NCBI RefSeq assembly: GCF_022848905.1
Contig: NZ_JAFIRA010000008.1
Location: 1-64,000 of the forward strand
DNA length: 64,000 nt
DNA from: Thermostichus vulcanus str. 'Rupite'
GTDB taxonomy: Bacteria > Cyanobacteriota > Cyanobacteriia > Thermostichales > Thermostichaceae
Direction of reading: 5' to 3'
Position 1 is the stretch's first letter. Each line of letters begins with the position of its first letter. A program made the position numbers and the translations under genes. Of this stretch, positions 2,690 through 27,771 are shown one piece after another. Below the pieces are notes generated by a model, which did no database searches, was not told where the DNA came from, and was given only the letters and a program-made list of their open reading frames with translations.

Positions 2690-4909
2690 ATGATCTCCGA
2701 TGCCGTCCAGGCAGGCAAAGAAGCACTGCGGCAGGGCCGTTTTCAAGAAGCTATTCAACTTTTTGAAGACTACTTGGCCCAAGGGATCCCGGCAGCTCCA
2801 CCCAACAGCGAAACCCTTGAAGCCAAAATGAACCTGGTGCGGGCCTACCATCAATCGGGCCAGATACGAAAAGCGCGGACCCTCTGCCTTGAACTGCTGC
2901 AACACCCCAACCCACAGGTGCAAAGTTGGGCCCAAAAAATCCTTCTCCGTCTGCCTGTCGTCGCAGAAAAGGACTCCGAACCTTTCCCCCCGGCCCAAAA
3001 GCGTTCTGCTTCCTCTATTCCCGTAGAGCCAGCCCCTAACCCTAAGACTAAACCCGACTTAGGAGCCCCATCCGCTCGTCAACGGGCCATTCAACTGGGC
3101 ATGAAGCTCCCCTTACCGGATCGGGCCGGTTCTTTGCGCTGGGCCAAATGGGGATCCCTGCTGCTGGCCGCGGCGCTGTTGTGGTGGGTTTGTTTTGCGC
3201 TGGTGGGCGGACAACTGGATTTCAGTCGATTGGGCTTTCCGCGCCAACTGTCTTGGTTGCGGGGGGTGCTGCCCTGGCTGCGCAATGGGTTGCGCTGGCT
3301 GGTGGCCGGTAGCTTAGCGATCAACGTTGGCGTGGGCCTTTTGTTCTTTGCCCCCTGGCTGATGGATCAACTGCACCAACGGCTGCACAAATTGCGTTGG
3401 GCCAGCCTCAGTGAAATCGAGCGCCATAGCCCCGAAACCGCCCGCCTCCTGCAACGCATCTGCGCCCAGAAGCAACTGAAACAGCCTCGCTTGGGGGTGA
3501 TCCCGGATGCTGGCCCCCTGGCATTTGTCTATGGCACTTTTTCGGATGGCTGCCGGATTGTGGTCACGAAAGGACTGTTGGAGCAACTCACTGAGGATGA
3601 AATTGCAGCGGTCTATGCTCAAGCCTTGGGGCGGATTGTGAATGGGGATGCCCTGGTGATGACCCTGCTGGGATCCCCGGTTCAACTGATTTACCTAGCT
3701 TTGGAGCAGGTGAGCAAACTGGGGGAAGGGCGGGGCCAGAGTCGGCGCAAAGACTTAATCGGTCATGTGGCTCCGTTCATTTACTTGCTCTACACGGTTT
3801 TGTCCTATCCTTTGTTTTTTCTGTCTCGCCTTGGCACTTATCATGCCGATCACTTTGCAGTGGAAGTGACGGGCAATCCCAATGGGTTGATCAGCGCCCT
3901 GATCAAAAGTGCTGATGGCCTGCAAGAGGCCCACAAAAACGACAAACGGCCTGCTTCTTTGCTGCACTGTACTCGCCTGTTTGCTCTGCTGGATTTCAAA
4001 ACCACAACCGCTGCCGGAGCGGCAAATCGGGTTTTACAGAATCCGGAAGATCCACTGATGCAGCCAGAGCAAGTGGGACAAATCTTTCTCTGGGATCAGT
4101 ACAATCCCTGGGCCCGTTGGATGCAGGCCAATTCCAGCCATCCCTTGATGGGGCACCGTTTCAAGGTTTTGGCAGGATATGGAGAACGGTTGCGGCTGCC
4201 AATGGAGCTGGGGCTGGGATCCCAAGCTGGACAAAAGCTGGATGCAGCTCGCCTTAAGGGTCAGTTTGGGTGGGATCTGGCCATTTATGCTGCTGAGGTG
4301 GTCGGGATCCTGATCGGTTGGCTGGTGGGGTTGATCCTCTATCTGACGCTGCAAAATCGTCTGGATCCCAAGGTGATCTTGGCGGCGGTGGTGGTGGGTT
4401 ACGGGGTAGGGTTGTGGGCTAAGGCCGGCTTGATGTACCGGCGCACCCCCCAAGCCCGATTGACAGATGTCCTGAGTTTGGTTGCGGATCCCTACGCGGA
4501 TCCCCGCCGGGGTCAGTGGGTGGAGTTGGAAGGAGAACTGGTGGGGCTGGGGCGTTCTGGCTATCAATTGGGGGCGGAACTGAAGCTACAGGACTCTACG
4601 GGGTTGATCCCGGTACGCTTTACCTCCCCTTTCGGGCCAGTAGGCAATGTGTTTTCCCGTCTGAAACGCATTCGGGCACTCATGGGCAAGCGGGTCAAAC
4701 TGGTGGGCTGGTTTCGCCGCGGCAACACCGCTTGGTTGGATCTGGCCTATATACAGGTGGGATCCGAAAGGATTCACAGTCGCCCGCGCCTGTGGCTAAT
4801 CCTGTTTGGGGCGGGTGTGGTCTTGGTAGGCATCTGGGGGGCCTTTTATTTCCCCAATCTGGCGTTCTACTTGCGGCAGCAGGGGCGACCTGTGTTTTGG
4901 TTTGGTTGA
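2690..4909 (+). CDS. TPR / M48-like membrane protein with a degenerate zinc-protease site
   Basis: A 739-residue protein. Residues 1-90 form a TPR-like helical region (GRFQEAIQLFEDYLAQ); a Pro-rich linker follows, then two membrane segments around 150-230. Residues 240-510 align by eye with the M48 (HtpX/Ste24) fold: VTKGLLEQLTEDEIAAVYAQALGRIVNGD stands where active members have an HExxH helix, and LGTYHADHFAVEVTG stands where they have the ExxAD third-ligand motif. The two His and the Glu of HExxH are Gln311, Arg315 and Ala312 here, and the third-ligand Glu is Thr383, so zinc proteolysis is very unlikely. Two more membrane segments, an OB-fold-like domain (about 605-690: WVELEGELVG...RVKLVGWFRR) and a final membrane helix follow. 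The family assignment is knowledge-based; the pseudoenzyme status is read from the sequence. A GGAGC-type ribosome site precedes the ATG. Confidence 0.75.
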   Translation: MISDAVQAGKEALRQGRFQEAIQLFEDYLAQGIPAAPPNSETLEAKMNLVRAYHQSGQIRKARTLCLELLQHPNPQVQSWAQKILLRLPVVAEKDSEPFPPAQKRSASSIPVEPAPNPKTKPDLGAPSARQRAIQLGMKLPLPDRAGSLRWAKWGSLLLAAALLWWVCFALVGGQLDFSRLGFPRQLSWLRGVLPWLRNGLRWLVAGSLAINVGVGLLFFAPWLMDQLHQRLHKLRWASLSEIERHSPETARLLQRICAQKQLKQPRLGVIPDAGPLAFVYGTFSDGCRIVVTKGLLEQLTEDEIAAVYAQALGRIVNGDALVMTLLGSPVQLIYLALEQVSKLGEGRGQSRRKDLIGHVAPFIYLLYTVLSYPLFFLSRLGTYHADHFAVEVTGNPNGLISALIKSADGLQEAHKNDKRPASLLHCTRLFALLDFKTTTAAGAANRVLQNPEDPLMQPEQVGQIFLWDQYNPWARWMQANSSHPLMGHRFKVLAGYGERLRLPMELGLGSQAGQKLDAARLKGQFGWDLAIYAAEVVGILIGWLVGLILYLTLQNRLDPKVILAAVVVGYGVGLWAKAGLMYRRTPQARLTDVLSLVADPYADPRRGQWVELEGELVGLGRSGYQLGAELKLQDSTGLIPVRFTSPFGPVGNVFSRLKRIRALMGKRVKLVGWFRRGNTAWLDLAYIQVGSERIHSRPRLWLILFGAGVVLVGIWGAFYFPNLAFYLRQQGRPVFWFG

Positions 4910-4915
4910 AGGGAT

Positions 4916-6733
4916 TCAGCGGCGGGAGGTGGTAAGCTGAGCTTTCCGTAGGCGCACCGACTTGGGGGTGATCTCTACTAACTCATCCTCACTGATGTAC
5001 TCGAGGGCCCGCTCCAGATTCATATCCACGGGGGCCTGCAAATGCACCAGTTCTTCTCCCCCCGCCGCGCGGTGGTTGGTCAACTGCTTGGTTTTGCAGA
5101 CGTTCAACTCCAGATCCTGCGGGCGATTGTGTTCTCCCACCACCATGCCTTTGTAGACACGGGTTCCCGGTGAGATGAAAAACACCCCCCGATCCTCAGC
5201 ATTTTTGAGGGAGTAGCTGGTGGCGACCCCTTCTTCAAACGCAATCAGCACCCCATTGCGGCGCATCTCCATTTCGGCAGTCATGGGGCGGTACTCCAAA
5301 AAGCTGTGGCTCATGATCCCTTCCCCACGGGTCATGCGGATGAACTCACCCCGGAAGCCGATCAACCCCCGTGCCGGAATGACAAATTCCAGTTGCGCCC
5401 GCCCATCGGAGCCAACCATCATGTTCTGCATTTCCCCCCGCCGTTGCCCCAACCGTTCGATACAGGATCCCATCGCTGACTCCGGCACATCCAGCACCAA
5501 GCACTCGTAGGGTTCGTAGGGTTGGCCGTTCACTTCCCGGAAAATTACCCGTGGCTGCCCCACCTGGAACTCATAGCCTTCCCGCCGCATGGTTTCTAGC
5601 AAAATGCCCAAGTGCAGTTCCCCCCGACCCGACACCAAGAAGCGATCCGGGGAGTCGGTTTCTTCCACCCGCAGGGCAACGTTGGTTTCCAATTCCCGCA
5701 TCAGCCGCTCCCGCAGTTGCCGGGAGGTGACAAAGGTGCCTTCCTGGCCAGCAAAGGGGGAATCGTTCACGCAGAGCACCATCTGCAAGGTGGGCTCATC
5801 TACCTTAATCAGGGGTAAGGCTTGTGGATTATCCGGGCTAGTCAGGGTATGACCAATGTTGGCCTCCGCAAATCCAGCCACTGCGACAATGTGCCCAACT
5901 GTAGCTTCGGTCAGTTCGATCCGCTGCAACCCCTGAAAGCCAAACAGCTTGGTGACCTTGTTTTTGACGATCTTGCCCTCTTCTTTCACTAGGGCCAGTT
6001 GCTCCCCGAGACGGATGGTGCCGTTGTGGATCTTGCCAATCACGATCCGACCCAGATACTCCGAGTACTCCAGGGTGGTGACTTGCAACTGTAGCGGCTT
6101 GCTGGCATCGCCAATCGGTGGAGGGACATGCTTCAGGATCCCGTCAAAAAGGGGCTGCATATCCAGGGATCCGCTGTAGTTCCCTGCCAGAAAATCGTTT
6201 AGATCGGCCTCTTCGAGGGCAAAGCCCTGTAGCCCAGAGGCAAACAGATAGGGGAAGTCACACTGGTCTTCGTCTGCGCCCAGCTCCAAAAATAGATCTA
6301 GCACCTTGTCAATCGCTTTGTAGGGTTCGGCGCGGGGACGGTCGATCTTGTTCACCACCACAATGGGGCGCAACCCTTTTTCCAGGGCCTTACGGAGTAC
6401 AAACCGGGTTTGCGGCATCGGGCCTTCGTTGGCATCCACAATCAGTAGACACCCCTCCACCATGCCCAGCACCCGTTCCACCTCGCCACCAAAATCAGCG
6501 TGGCCGGGCGTATCGACAATATTGATGAGGGTTTCACCGTAGCGAACTGCCGTATTTTTGGAAAGGATGGTGATGCCCCGTTCCCGCTCCAGGGTATTGG
6601 AGTCCATCACACAGGTGGGAACTTCCTCCCCCTCCCGAAAGGTGCCCGCTTGCCGCAACAGCGCGTCCACGAGGGTGGTTTTGCCATGATCAACGTGGGC
6701 AATGATGGCGACATTACGGATGGGGAGTGACAT
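4916..6733 (-). CDS. typA: Translational GTPase TypA/BipA
   Basis: Ribosome-associated GTPase of the EF-G-like family, involved in 50S assembly and stress adaptation. I chose the internal ATG at 6733 because [20 protein letters not shown] is the family's normal N-terminus; the frame can extend 17 residues upstream (to 6784), but those are not family-like. The product is then 605 residues, the usual length. The G motifs are all present: AHVDHGKT (12-19), [16 protein letters not shown] (about 74-84), NKID (about 128-131) and SGLQG. These are followed by the beta-barrel, two alpha/beta domains and the TypA-specific C-terminus ([23 protein letters not shown], and [10 protein letters not shown] near the end). 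It lies tail-to-tail with the M48-like gene, six bases apart. Confidence 0.96.
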
Positions 6734-6852
6734 AAAAATAAGCCAAAAGAGATATGGCCTTTCTGGCTGGGTTGCCGCAGGCATTTCTTTACAACTTTAA
6801 CGCAAAGGAGCGTTACATTGGTAAACACTCTTAGCTTTGTGCTCAGCACTCC

Positions 6853-7410: not shown

Positions 7411-7779
7411 TCAACCGTAGTAGCCTTGGTTGATGCGGTTTTCCAGTTGGTTGGCCCCCTCCTGATACTCACCGATGACAAAGTTCTCGGCATTAGCTTT
7501 GATCAAGGCTTTTTGTTCCTCTGTCAGGCCCGGGATCCGCAGCATATCCTCCAAGCTGTTGTAGGGAGCATTCTGCACCAAAGTGCGGGCCAAATTGGGG
7601 TAGAACCCAGGCAATTGGCGGTAGTTGCGCAAGATGGTGTTGTTCACATCAATCGGGGCATCCAGATGCTTCACAGCGGGAAGTTCCGCAGCATGAGCCA
7701 CACCCAGGATCCCCAAAGGGGCAAAACACAGACACACAATCAACAGGAAACGAACTAGGGCGGACAACAGGAAACGCAT
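7411..7779 (-). CDS. psbU: Photosystem II 12-kDa extrinsic protein PsbU
   Basis: Lumenal protein that caps the oxygen-evolving Mn4CaO5 cluster of PSII and stabilises chloride/calcium retention and heat tolerance. I start at ATG 7779 ([13 protein letters not shown]...), which has GGAG upstream and gives 122 residues. The frame extends 28 codons further, but only this start places the signal peptide at the N-terminus. The leader runs to about residue 30 (GVAHA/AELP), and the mature protein of about 92 residues has the helix-hairpin-helix-like core ([35 protein letters not shown]) and the typical ending NRINQGYYG. It is transcribed divergently from gcvP. Confidence 0.95.
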
Positions 7780-8080
7780 AACACCACTTCTCCGAACAGG
7801 GTTCAAAACGCTCGTTTGATTGGGCGATACAGCTTTTCCAGCGATACTGACTACAGCCAACACAGACTCATCTCTTGCCTAGCAAGGATCCTGCTCAGCC
7901 TCAAGTCCTCTATGAAGTCGGGACCTGAAGTCGGGAAAAGCTGTAATATCTTCCAACCATTTAGTCTCTCATCCCCCCTACCCCGAATCGAGAGCCGAGG
8001 TGGGATCTCGATTCCTACAGAAACAATTTTTAACAACTATGATCAGGAGACAGTCTCTTTTTTGAGTCCAGCCTTGCACC
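7780..8080. promoter_or_regulatory. psbU-gcvP divergent promoter region
   Basis: A 301-bp gap lies between the divergent psbU and gcvP starts. It must contain both promoters and leader regions. I do not see a convincing consensus promoter, a glycine riboswitch core or an RNA gene here. The region directly upstream of gcvP is A/T-rich (GAAACAATTTTTAACAACTATGATCAGGAGAC), with AGGAG about 35 bases before the ATG, too far to be the ribosome site of the chosen start. Confidence 0.4.
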
Positions 8081-24347: not shown

Positions 24348-26192
24348 ATGAAGCCCAGCCTAATTGTCCAGAAATACGGTGGAACGTCTGTCGGCTCCAT
24401 CGAACGGATTCGGGCGGTAGCCAAGCGGGTAGCCCATACGGTGGAACAGGGACATCGGGTGGTGGTGGTGGTCTCGGCGATGGGGGATGAAACCGACCGC
24501 CTGGTGCAGTTGGCGGAGCAACTCTTAGCGGGATCCCCAACCACCCCCAGCCAGCAGCGGGAATGGGATATGCTCCTGTCCACTGGCGAACAGGTGAGCA
24601 TTGCCCTTCTGGCCCTAGCCCTACAACAACTGGGGTATACCGCCCTTTCCATGACAGCAGCGCAGGTGGGCATTTTTACCACGCGGGATCACATGCGGGC
24701 CCGCATTTTGGAGATCCACACCGAGCGCCTCCAGCATCATTTGGAACGGGGGGAGGTGGTGGTGGTGGCCGGGTTTCAGGGCATTACCAGCCCGACGGAG
24801 CTGGAGATTACCACCTTAGGTCGAGGGGGATCCGATACCACGGCGGTAGCCTTGGCAGTGGCATTACAAGCGCAGCTGTGCGAGATCTACACGGATGTGC
24901 CCGGCGTTTTTACCACCGACCCGCGCAAGGTGCCAGAAGCCAGGCTGCTGCCGGAGATCACCAGTGCCGAAATGCTGGAGTTGGCCAGTTTGGGGGCGCA
25001 GGTGTTGCATCCCCGCTCGGTGGAGATCGCCCGCAACTATGGAGTGAAGCTGCGGGTGCGTTCCAGTTTGCTGCCCTTCCAGGGGGAGGAGGCAAACCTG
25101 GGCACGTTCATTGTGTCTCCCCCTGCTCCGCCGGGTATCCCTAGGGGGGGATTAGAGATGGGCTTGGCAGTAGATACCGTCGAGGTGGACCGGGATCAGG
25201 CCAAGTTGGTGCTGGTGGGGGTACCGGATCGGCCCGGGATTGCTGCTCAGCTTTTCCAAGGCATTGCAGCAGCAGGGGTGAATGTGGATTTGATTTTGCA
25301 GTCGCTACAATTTAGCCCGGAAGATGCATCGCTCTCCACTCAACCCACCAATGACATTGCCTTCACCGTCAGCCGCTCTCAGGTTAGGGAGGCAGCAGCA
25401 GTGGCCCAACGCATCGGCCAAGAGCTGGGGTGTGAGGCGGTCATGGTGGATGAGGCGGTGGCCAAAGTCAGCATTGCTGGAGTGGGGATGATTGGGCGAC
25501 CAGGGATCGCCGCCCAGATGTTTCAGGTGCTGGCGAAGGCGGGGATCAACCTGCAGATGATTTCGATGTCGGAGATGAAAGTAAGCTGTGTGGTAGCTGC
25601 TGAGCGAGCCGGTGATGCCGCCTTGGCGCTGGGGGAATCGTTTCAGGTGATCCCCCGTTTACATCGGCCTCAACCTTTCCCTAGGGATCCGCTCCAACCA
25701 GCGGCCCGCCACCCTGTACGGGGTATCGCTCTGGATCTAAAGCAATCCCGCCTAGGCATTCGTAAGGTACCGGATCGACCGGGAACGGCTGCCCATTTGT
25801 TCGGACAGTTGGCTGCCGCCGGAGTGATTGTCGATACGATCATCCAAAGCCAGCGGGGCTACCACAACGGGATCCCGAGCAACGACATTGCCTTCACGGT
25901 GCCCCAGGATCAGGCGGGGGCAGCGGAAGCGGTGTGTCAGCAGGTGGCCCGAGACCTGCAGGCGGCGGGAGTCGATATCGATCACGAGATTGCCAAGGTC
26001 AGCATTGTCGGGGCGGAAATGGAAGCCCATCCGGGGGTGGCCGCCCATCTGTTTGCCACCCTGGCGGCAGCCGGGATCAACATCGAGATGATCGCCACCT
26101 CTGAAATTAAGGTGAGCTGTGTGGTGCGCCGTGAGCAGGGTCTCCTCGCCTTACGAACGATTCACCGCGCCTTCGAGCTGGATAAACCCTAG
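24348..26192 (+). CDS. lysC: Aspartate kinase with four ACT domains
   Basis: Phosphorylates aspartate, the first step towards lysine, threonine and methionine. The 614-residue protein has the kinase domain at 1-250 (KYGGTSVGSIERIRAVAKRV at the N-terminus; FTTRDHMRARILEI and TTLGRGGSDTTAVALA later) and then four ACT modules in two pairs. Their starts read VPDRPGIAAQLFQGIAAAGVNVDLI (about 285), GVGMIGRPGIAAQMFQVLAKAGINLQMI (about 380), VPDRPGTAAHLFGQLAAAGVIVDTI (about 475) and AEMEAHPGVAAHLFATLAAAGINIEMIATSE (about 555). The four-ACT form is usual in cyanobacteria and implies feedback by lysine and/or threonine. ATG 24348 gives the family N-terminus; a GTG 12 bases earlier is possible. Confidence 0.95.
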   Translation: MKPSLIVQKYGGTSVGSIERIRAVAKRVAHTVEQGHRVVVVVSAMGDETDRLVQLAEQLLAGSPTTPSQQREWDMLLSTGEQVSIALLALALQQLGYTALSMTAAQVGIFTTRDHMRARILEIHTERLQHHLERGEVVVVAGFQGITSPTELEITTLGRGGSDTTAVALAVALQAQLCEIYTDVPGVFTTDPRKVPEARLLPEITSAEMLELASLGAQVLHPRSVEIARNYGVKLRVRSSLLPFQGEEANLGTFIVSPPAPPGIPRGGLEMGLAVDTVEVDRDQAKLVLVGVPDRPGIAAQLFQGIAAAGVNVDLILQSLQFSPEDASLSTQPTNDIAFTVSRSQVREAAAVAQRIGQELGCEAVMVDEAVAKVSIAGVGMIGRPGIAAQMFQVLAKAGINLQMISMSEMKVSCVVAAERAGDAALALGESFQVIPRLHRPQPFPRDPLQPAARHPVRGIALDLKQSRLGIRKVPDRPGTAAHLFGQLAAAGVIVDTIIQSQRGYHNGIPSNDIAFTVPQDQAGAAEAVCQQVARDLQAAGVDIDHEIAKVSIVGAEMEAHPGVAAHLFATLAAAGINIEMIATSEIKVSCVVRREQGLLALRTIHRAFELDKP

Positions 26193-26220
26193 AGTTTCTC
26201 GGGTTGTGGGGATCCCTGAC

Positions 26221-27771
26221 TTACACCCCCGCAGAAATACCCACCGGAGAACGGCGCACTCGCTTGTCTGTAATCAGCTCCACCACATCCATGCCGTTGC
26301 TGATCACCCCCGGTACACTCGGATACCCGGCACTGGCCCCCACCAAAAAGAGGTTGGGCAGTTCCGTTTCATAGCCGAGGCGATGTAGCCCCACTTGCTT
26401 GGGCACCAACTTCGCGCCGTAGATGTTGCCTCGAGGTTGGCCGAGGAAATGCTCGCTGGTAGTGGGGGTACCGTACACTTTCATGCGGATATACCGATCC
26501 ACATCCGGGATCAGATCCCGCACGCTGCTCATCACCGCCTGGTAAACCTCCCGTTTTTTGGCTTTGTAGGCTTTGGGATCCGCGTCGTGCAGTTGCTTAA
26601 AGGGTTCGTAGGGACAGACGGTAGCAATTTCCAACACATGATGTCCAGGAGGAGCCATACCCGGTTCGTCGGATTTTACGGTTGGGCAAGAAAGGAAAAT
26701 CCAGGGGTGCTCCAGGTTGCCCGCCAGTTGTTGGTCGTAGGCGCGGTTCAGATCCCCGTCGGGATAGTACCAAATGTTCCAGTTACCGATGCCATAGCGG
26801 GCCGGGTTAAAGCGGCTATCCAGACCCAGGTAGATGTTAAAGGCACTGGCGGAATACTCGTAGTTGGTGAGGCGCTGTCGCTCCGCTTGGCTCAGGGATC
26901 CCCCGTGCATCAGGTCTACCGTTAGTTTTGGATCCAGATCGCTAATGTAGGCTTTGCTGGCAACAAAGTGAGTTCCCCCCGCCGTTACCCATTCCACCAC
27001 GCCACTTTTGGCTTCGATGTGTTCGACCGGAGTGGAATAGCGGATGGTCCCTCCCGCCTGCACAATCGCATCCACAATCGTGTCCACAAAGCCCTTGAAG
27101 TGTTCCCGTGGATAATAGGCCCCTTCCGAGTAATCCCAAACCAGCGCAGTGTGGGTGAGCAGGGCGATCTCTTTTGGGGGCAGGGCATAATCACCGCTTT
27201 GCCCGGCCAGAAGTGCTTGCAGCTTTGGCGAAACACCGACCCGATCGTAGAGATCCTGAAGTGTCCAGTGCCGTTTCTGGAACAGGTTGAAATACTTAGG
27301 CAGTTTCAACCAGTCGTACCATTTGGGGTCGTACCAGCGCACCTCTTGGTTGAGCTGGTGAATGTCTGCGTGTAGGCGCTGAATTTCATCACAGTAGCGG
27401 TTGATTGCCGCTGCTTCTTCGGGGAATCGATCCAACAGGCGGTTACGCAAGTTCTCCCAACCCAAGGGAATAGCAAAGTCCACCTCTGGGGTGATTACCC
27501 GATCAATGCAATCGGGATCCAGTGAATTGAATGCAACCTCGCGGCCAATGTAGTTGAGAAACTGGTCGATGGCCTGCCCCGGCCCACACTGGGAAATGTA
27601 GTGGACATCCGCGCAAAAGCGGTAGTTCCCGTAGTCGAAGGTATGGCAACAGCCTCCGGGCAAATAGTGTTTCTCCAGCACTGCCACGCGGGCTCCCTGA
27701 CGGCTCAGGCAAGCCGCTGCTGCCAATCCCCCCAATCCAGCACCCAACACCACATAGTCAAACAGTTCCAT
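26221..27771 (-). CDS. FAD-dependent oxidoreductase of the carotenoid isomerase/desaturase-retinol saturase superfamily
   Basis: A 516-residue protein with an N-terminal Rossmann dinucleotide fold (YVVLGAGLGGLAAAACLSRQGARVAVLEKHYLPGGCCHTF) and the C-terminal FAD block GNIYGAKL...NLFLVGASAGYPSVPGVISNGMDV seen in CrtI/CrtISO-like enzymes. The intervening region (YPREHFKGFVDTIVDAIVQAGGTIRYSTPVEHIEA) follows the same pattern. The substrate is unknown; carotenoids, retinoids or chlorophyll-related lipids are possible. I start at ATG 27771, preceded by GAGGAGGAG at ideal distance; the frame extends 16 codons further. It lies 125 bp downstream of the divergent psbA on the same strand, so cotranscription is possible. 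Confidence 0.75.
   Translation of the reverse strand: MELFDYVVLGAGLGGLAAAACLSRQGARVAVLEKHYLPGGCCHTFDYGNYRFCADVHYISQCGPGQAIDQFLNYIGREVAFNSLDPDCIDRVITPEVDFAIPLGWENLRNRLLDRFPEEAAAINRYCDEIQRLHADIHQLNQEVRWYDPKWYDWLKLPKYFNLFQKRHWTLQDLYDRVGVSPKLQALLAGQSGDYALPPKEIALLTHTALVWDYSEGAYYPREHFKGFVDTIVDAIVQAGGTIRYSTPVEHIEAKSGVVEWVTAGGTHFVASKAYISDLDPKLTVDLMHGGSLSQAERQRLTNYEYSASAFNIYLGLDSRFNPARYGIGNWNIWYYPDGDLNRAYDQQLAGNLEHPWIFLSCPTVKSDEPGMAPPGHHVLEIATVCPYEPFKQLHDADPKAYKAKKREVYQAVMSSVRDLIPDVDRYIRMKVYGTPTTSEHFLGQPRGNIYGAKLVPKQVGLHRLGYETELPNLFLVGASAGYPSVPGVISNGMDVVELITDKRVRRSPVGISAGV

Follow-up and report, generated by a model that had tools for sequence, protein, structure and literature searches.

The locus analysed here raises the question of what a protein is kept for that has the domain of an M48 peptidase but none of the residues of its zinc site. 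The window is a 64,000-nucleotide stretch of Thermostichus vulcanus DNA. The features that bear on this question are listed below by window coordinates.

2678–2682, +, AGGAG, likely ribosome binding site (read directly, seven bases 5' of the ATG)
2690–4909, +, pseudo-M48 gene, 739 aa
2702–2959, +, TPR region, residues 5–90 (PF14559; confident helical pairs in the model)
3146–3217, +, hydrophobic segment, putatively in the membrane, residues 153–176 (hydropathy)
3290–3364, +, hydrophobic segment, putatively in the membrane, residues 201–225 (hydropathy)
3434–4174, +, Peptidase_M48 domain, residues 249–495 (Pfam match; hhalign to HtpX)
3620–3634, +, QALGR, residues 311–315, replacing HExxH
3836–3838, +, Thr383, replacing the third zinc ligand Glu
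3848–3850, +, Asp387, invariant in ligand-less homologues
4139–4159, +, HPLMGHR, residues 484–490
4271–4432, +, two hydrophobic segments, putatively in the membrane, residues 528–581 (hydropathy)
4463–4795, +, putative OB-like C-terminal domain, residues 592–702 (model; Foldseek)
4784–4873, +, C-terminal hydrophobic segment, putatively in the membrane, residues 699–728 (hydropathy)
4916–6784, −, typA (BipA), convergent neighbour (TIGR01394, 926 bits)

The frame of 739 codons contains no internal stop, in agreement with the initial annotation. In at least five of the six genomes of the window's genus, typA follows convergently 13–38 bp downstream. Further neighbours in the window are a calcineurin-like phosphoesterase with MetallophosN/C domains (280–2298, −) and PsbU of photosystem II (7411–7863, −).

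Domain architecture and the missing zinc site

PF01435 (Peptidase_M48) matches residues 249–495 with 60.1 bits (Pfam cut-off 20.3). In a phmmer alignment, residues 255–327 are paired with the HtpX homologue structure 3cqb and QALGR lies under the HExxH helix. Profile comparison by hhalign relates the M48 region of the pseudo-family to intact cyanobacterial HtpX across the whole domain (E 7.5e-24), and the pseudo-family to its active paralogues with E 1.2e-74. The best NCBIfam models for the window protein are those of HtpX, all far under their cut-offs; 77 bits are reached with the HtpX equivalog (cut-off 341). By these scores the protein resembles the membrane zinc protease HtpX (M48B) in having a homologous M48 domain with membrane segments, whereas it lacks the zinc ligands and has extra TPR and OB-like domains. 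The full-length structure predicted from three close sequences has a pLDDT of only 39, with the TPR as its only confident part, and the assignment of the M48 fold therefore rests on the profiles.

The zinc site of M48 peptidases is formed by HExxH and the glutamate of ExxAD. In the window protein the ligands H, E, H and E are replaced by Q311, A312, R315 and T383, while Asp387 of the AD pair is retained. Both replacements named in the initial annotation, QALGR for HExxH and Thr383 for the third ligand, are confirmed from the translated frame, and no HExxH occurs at any other place in the chain; such a motif would have counted against the proposal. The protein matches the domain profile but has neither HExxH nor the third glutamate. 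Judged by these defining residues it is not an M48 peptidase, though it is an M48-domain protein.

The TPR domain proposed earlier is recovered as PF14559 at residues 12–72 (30.5 bits, cut-off 25). Residues 592–702, modelled alone, adopt a β3-α-β2 order at low confidence (pLDDT 57), and Foldseek relates this model to the OB folds of Stn1, LysRS, AspRS and RPA (E about 5e-4, TM about 0.5). In a Pfam scan of 42 ligand-less members, PF01435 is matched by 38 and the TPR profile by 30; no OB family is matched. The model thus lends weak support to the earlier proposal that the C-terminal domain is OB-like. Its likeness to OB folds of tRNA synthetases and Stn1/RPA speaks for the adaptor reading given below, but the model is of low confidence and OB folds also bind proteins. 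Analogy with HtpX would place the TPR, M48 and OB-like domains on the cytosolic side; charge counts are not decisive. Several membrane segments around these domains would be compatible with a role as a membrane scaffold.

Conservation and history of the ligand-less family

The family was surveyed in 59 relatives and then in 195 genomes of the class, of which 159 contain a match at E ≤ 1e-20. Ligand states were read for 123 complete homologues, which come from numerous families of cyanobacteria. All four zinc ligands are present in 30, and the site is incomplete in 93, the latter forming a group defined by motif state. Since most relatives are without the complete site, the family alignment supports a conserved pseudoprotease clade, as had been envisaged.

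None of the 93 ligand-less homologues keeps the third-ligand glutamate and two keep the first histidine, while E312 is retained in 63 and H315 in 59. Twelve different residues occur at position 311 and likewise at 383, mostly non-liganding ones (Ala, Gly, Leu, Thr, Val). All 93 share Asp387 and Arg490, and P397, N398 and W468 are almost as constant. His484, located at the HP motif position of M48 proteins, is retained in 39 of the first 45 ligand-less homologues. Two loci (L107 and L108, from genomes G097 and G138) combine HExxH with a Thr at the third ligand; both genes lie behind prfC. These could be intermediates of site loss.

Within the window's genus the dN/dS of the pseudo-M48 gene is 0.108–0.180, similar to that of the active paralogue (0.074–0.195). 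Constraint is strongest in the M48 and OB-like regions and least in the linker 91–145. The gene is under purifying selection and, with the catalytic residues lost across 93 homologues, the protein qualifies as a pseudoprotease.

A decaying pseudogene might be suspected from the window protein, which lacks all four catalytic ligands, but it is refuted by the intact frame, by dN/dS values of 0.11–0.18 and by 93 homologues across many families that have likewise lost the site, and its probability is negligible. Chance or debris is rejected by the same dN/dS values and homologues. The description as a retained pseudoenzyme in the initial annotation thus holds, given also the lack of another HExxH and a selection regime like that of the active paralogue. 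It is very unlikely that a metal site or some chemistry persists through other ligands. The frequent E312 and H315, the mostly retained His484 and the invariant Asp387 and Arg490 would agree with such a site, but the window protein is without both E312 and H315, and the substitutes at 311 and 383 are varied and mostly unable to bind metal. Judging from these sequences, the product is almost certainly a pseudoenzyme: a conserved M48 (HtpX-like) membrane protein that has lost catalysis.

In a tree of 70 rows the members with an intact site group together (97/98), as do the eight of the window's group (100/100). With HtpX as outgroup, the position of HtpX separates the large ligand-less clade from all other rows; about four losses would follow. 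The root is unsure because the HtpX branch is long, and a tree with all ligand-less rows constrained to one clade is not rejected (p-AU 0.38). The zinc site may have been lost once in the distant past or several times, neither of which is rejected. The window's group is nearest to the active clade, C-terminal domain included, so a later, separate loss may have occurred there.

Five M48 matches are present in the window's genome. One is a paralogue on contig C44 (L006) with an intact HELGH; further M48 proteins keep HExxH as HELGH (contig C1) and HEVAH (C27). The clade of the C44 paralogue has the M48 and C-terminal domains in common with the window protein (42% identity for the C44 paralogue), but H, E, H and E are present in all 30 members. 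The N-terminal region of this clade is variable, with TPR models matching only few of 21 members. In one active-type paralogue (L020, contig C60 of G043), a stop splits the frame into an N-terminal and a C-terminal part, which may be a real break or a sequence error.

Among 48 genomes with any family member, 26 contain the ligand-less form alone, 20 both forms and 2 the active form alone; the pseudo form is thus present in 46. Because 26 genomes hold it alone, the pseudoprotease is not merely a companion of the active paralogue. Fifteen genomes without a first-pass match were re-searched loosely and gave separate TPR-like or short M48-like matches, but no full-length member. In this search none was found in G020, G052 and G073, which we take to be Gloeobacter violaceus, G. 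kilaueensis and Anthocerotibacter, respectively. Absence from these thylakoid-less genomes agrees with a thylakoid role, yet Synechococcus elongatus (presumably G037) and small-genome marine lineages also have no full-length member and do have thylakoids. By the sequence matches, the pseudoprotease is present in most cyanobacteria other than the marine picoplankton and the lineages without thylakoids. TPR-only proteins of ~170–210 aa resemble its N-terminal TPR part, among them G000:C35:22944-23285 (L003). Similar short TPR ORFs are found in G037, G018, G146 and G153, and they occur also where the pseudoprotease is absent.

Gene neighbourhood of the pseudoprotease

A gene for an RRM protein lies directly downstream on the same strand in 61 of 123 genomes, which represent 14 families (median gap 688 bp). 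The PDPRWA motif, which marks cluster II Rbps such as Rbp3 of Synechocystis (PMC9333190), is present in all eight downstream RRM neighbours examined. By this motif the neighbour is of the Rbp3 type (rbp3/rbpG). Directly upstream, prfC (profile 826 bits) is found in 38 of 121 genomes; these belong to 10 families, and the gap has a median of about 180 bp. Beside the 30 active-type loci neither prfC nor rbp3 was found; the available flank extends 300 bp or further upstream in 28 of them and 1100 bp or further downstream in 18. No other neighbour recurs in at least three of 23 compared loci, except one small membrane protein upstream. Neighbour clustering had grouped typA with prfC, but this reflects GTPase homology only and the genes are different (926 and 826 bits with their respective models).

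This neighbourhood is missing in about half of the genomes. It is also absent from the window's genus, where typA is present and rbp3 and prfC lie on other contigs. On contig C44 of the window's genome, about 9 kb separate prfC from the active HELGH paralogue (G000:C44:15063-16643 and 25804-27309). The usual gap before rbp3 is 600–800 bp and may hold a promoter of its own; adjacency is therefore not necessarily co-expression. Rbp3-like proteins and prfC are present in nearly all sampled genomes. As this includes those in which no full-length family member was found, neither requires the pseudoprotease. Phylogenetic co-loss with Rbp3 or prfC was considered and is uninformative, both being near-universal in the genomes sampled.

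Published work assigns to the Rbp3/RbpG protein the placement of photosystem mRNAs at the thylakoids. Anabaena depends on RbpG, the homologue of Rbp3, for keeping photosynthetic mRNAs at their normal levels, organising its thylakoids and repairing PSII (PMC11500504). A paper cited in PMC12475003 states in its title an interaction of Rbp3 with ribosomes and with the 3' ends of mRNAs. The adjacency to prfC and rbp3 is a new observation and provides a more specific hypothesis than a membrane scaffold.

Possible roles of the pseudoprotease

Taken together, the data point to a membrane-anchored, non-catalytic M48 adaptor linked to membrane-bound translation or mRNA placement, and the probability of this whole reading is put at about 0.42. 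Its first part, a non-catalytic adaptor or chaperone, is probable; the tie to membrane-associated translation or Rbp3 is tentative. At the membrane, the former protease domain would offer a surface for binding, and the TPR and OB-like arms would reach into the cytosol. As an adaptor, the protein would connect membrane-bound ribosomes or photosynthetic mRNPs (RF3, Rbp3) with nascent membrane proteins. Such a working mode may be compared to that of BepA, which is reported to be chaperone-like with its active site shut.

His484 of the window protein may, we assume, correspond to His-246 of BepA. BepA of E. coli likewise combines M48 with TPR and has a chaperone-like role beside proteolysis, with His-246 as a regulatory switch (PMC8423444). 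Unlike the window protein, BepA has HExxH and Glu-201, is periplasmic and carries its TPR C-terminally. iRhoms and FtsHi are reported to be membrane protease folds retained after catalysis was lost (PMC6451368, PMC8197885), but they belong to protease families unrelated to M48. A review of metallopeptidase pseudoenzymes (PMC11266112) mentions neither M48 nor HtpX, and no description of a cyanobacterial zinc-less M48 pseudoprotease was found in the literature searched.

The anatomy shared with BepA would also suit a chaperone or quality-control factor that binds clients at the membrane and has no particular link with RNA or ribosomes; the order of prfC and rbp3 would then be inherited and functionally meaningless. 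That about half of the genomes lack this order, as does the window's genus, agrees with such a factor, but the conservation of the order over 14 families (rbp3) and 10 families (prfC), with hardly another neighbour recurring three times in 23 loci, makes this explanation rather unlikely. Alternatively, the protein might regulate active M48 proteases, either the HELGH paralogue or HtpX, by mixed complexes or substrate shielding, as iRhoms do for rhomboid clients. The fold and C-terminal domain in common with the active paralogue (E 1.2e-74), the co-occurrence of both forms in 20 of the 48 genomes and the other intact-motif M48 proteins of the window's genome are consistent with this. However, HtpX or another M48 protein must be the partner in the 26 genomes without the active paralogue, and the pseudo and active genes have no common neighbours; a regulator is thus rather unlikely.

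The adaptor linked to membrane-bound translation therefore remains the preferred reading. In its most specific form, a protease fold disarmed long ago would now receive photosystem mRNPs and terminating ribosomes at the membrane, as their receptor or adaptor, together with Rbp3/RbpG and RF3; this form is unlikely. The pseudoprotease is a clean example of a protease fold outlasting its metal site, and many of the genomes that encode it also hold an intact paralogue to compare it with. For the delivery of photosystem mRNAs and ribosomes to the thylakoid surface, RNA-binding proteins are known, but to our knowledge a partner on the membrane side has not been established. With its gene often adjoining rbp3 and prfC, the conserved membrane pseudoprotease offers a concrete candidate for this partner that can be tested. 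If this is true, a disarmed protease fold would be the membrane-side partner in thylakoid mRNA placement.
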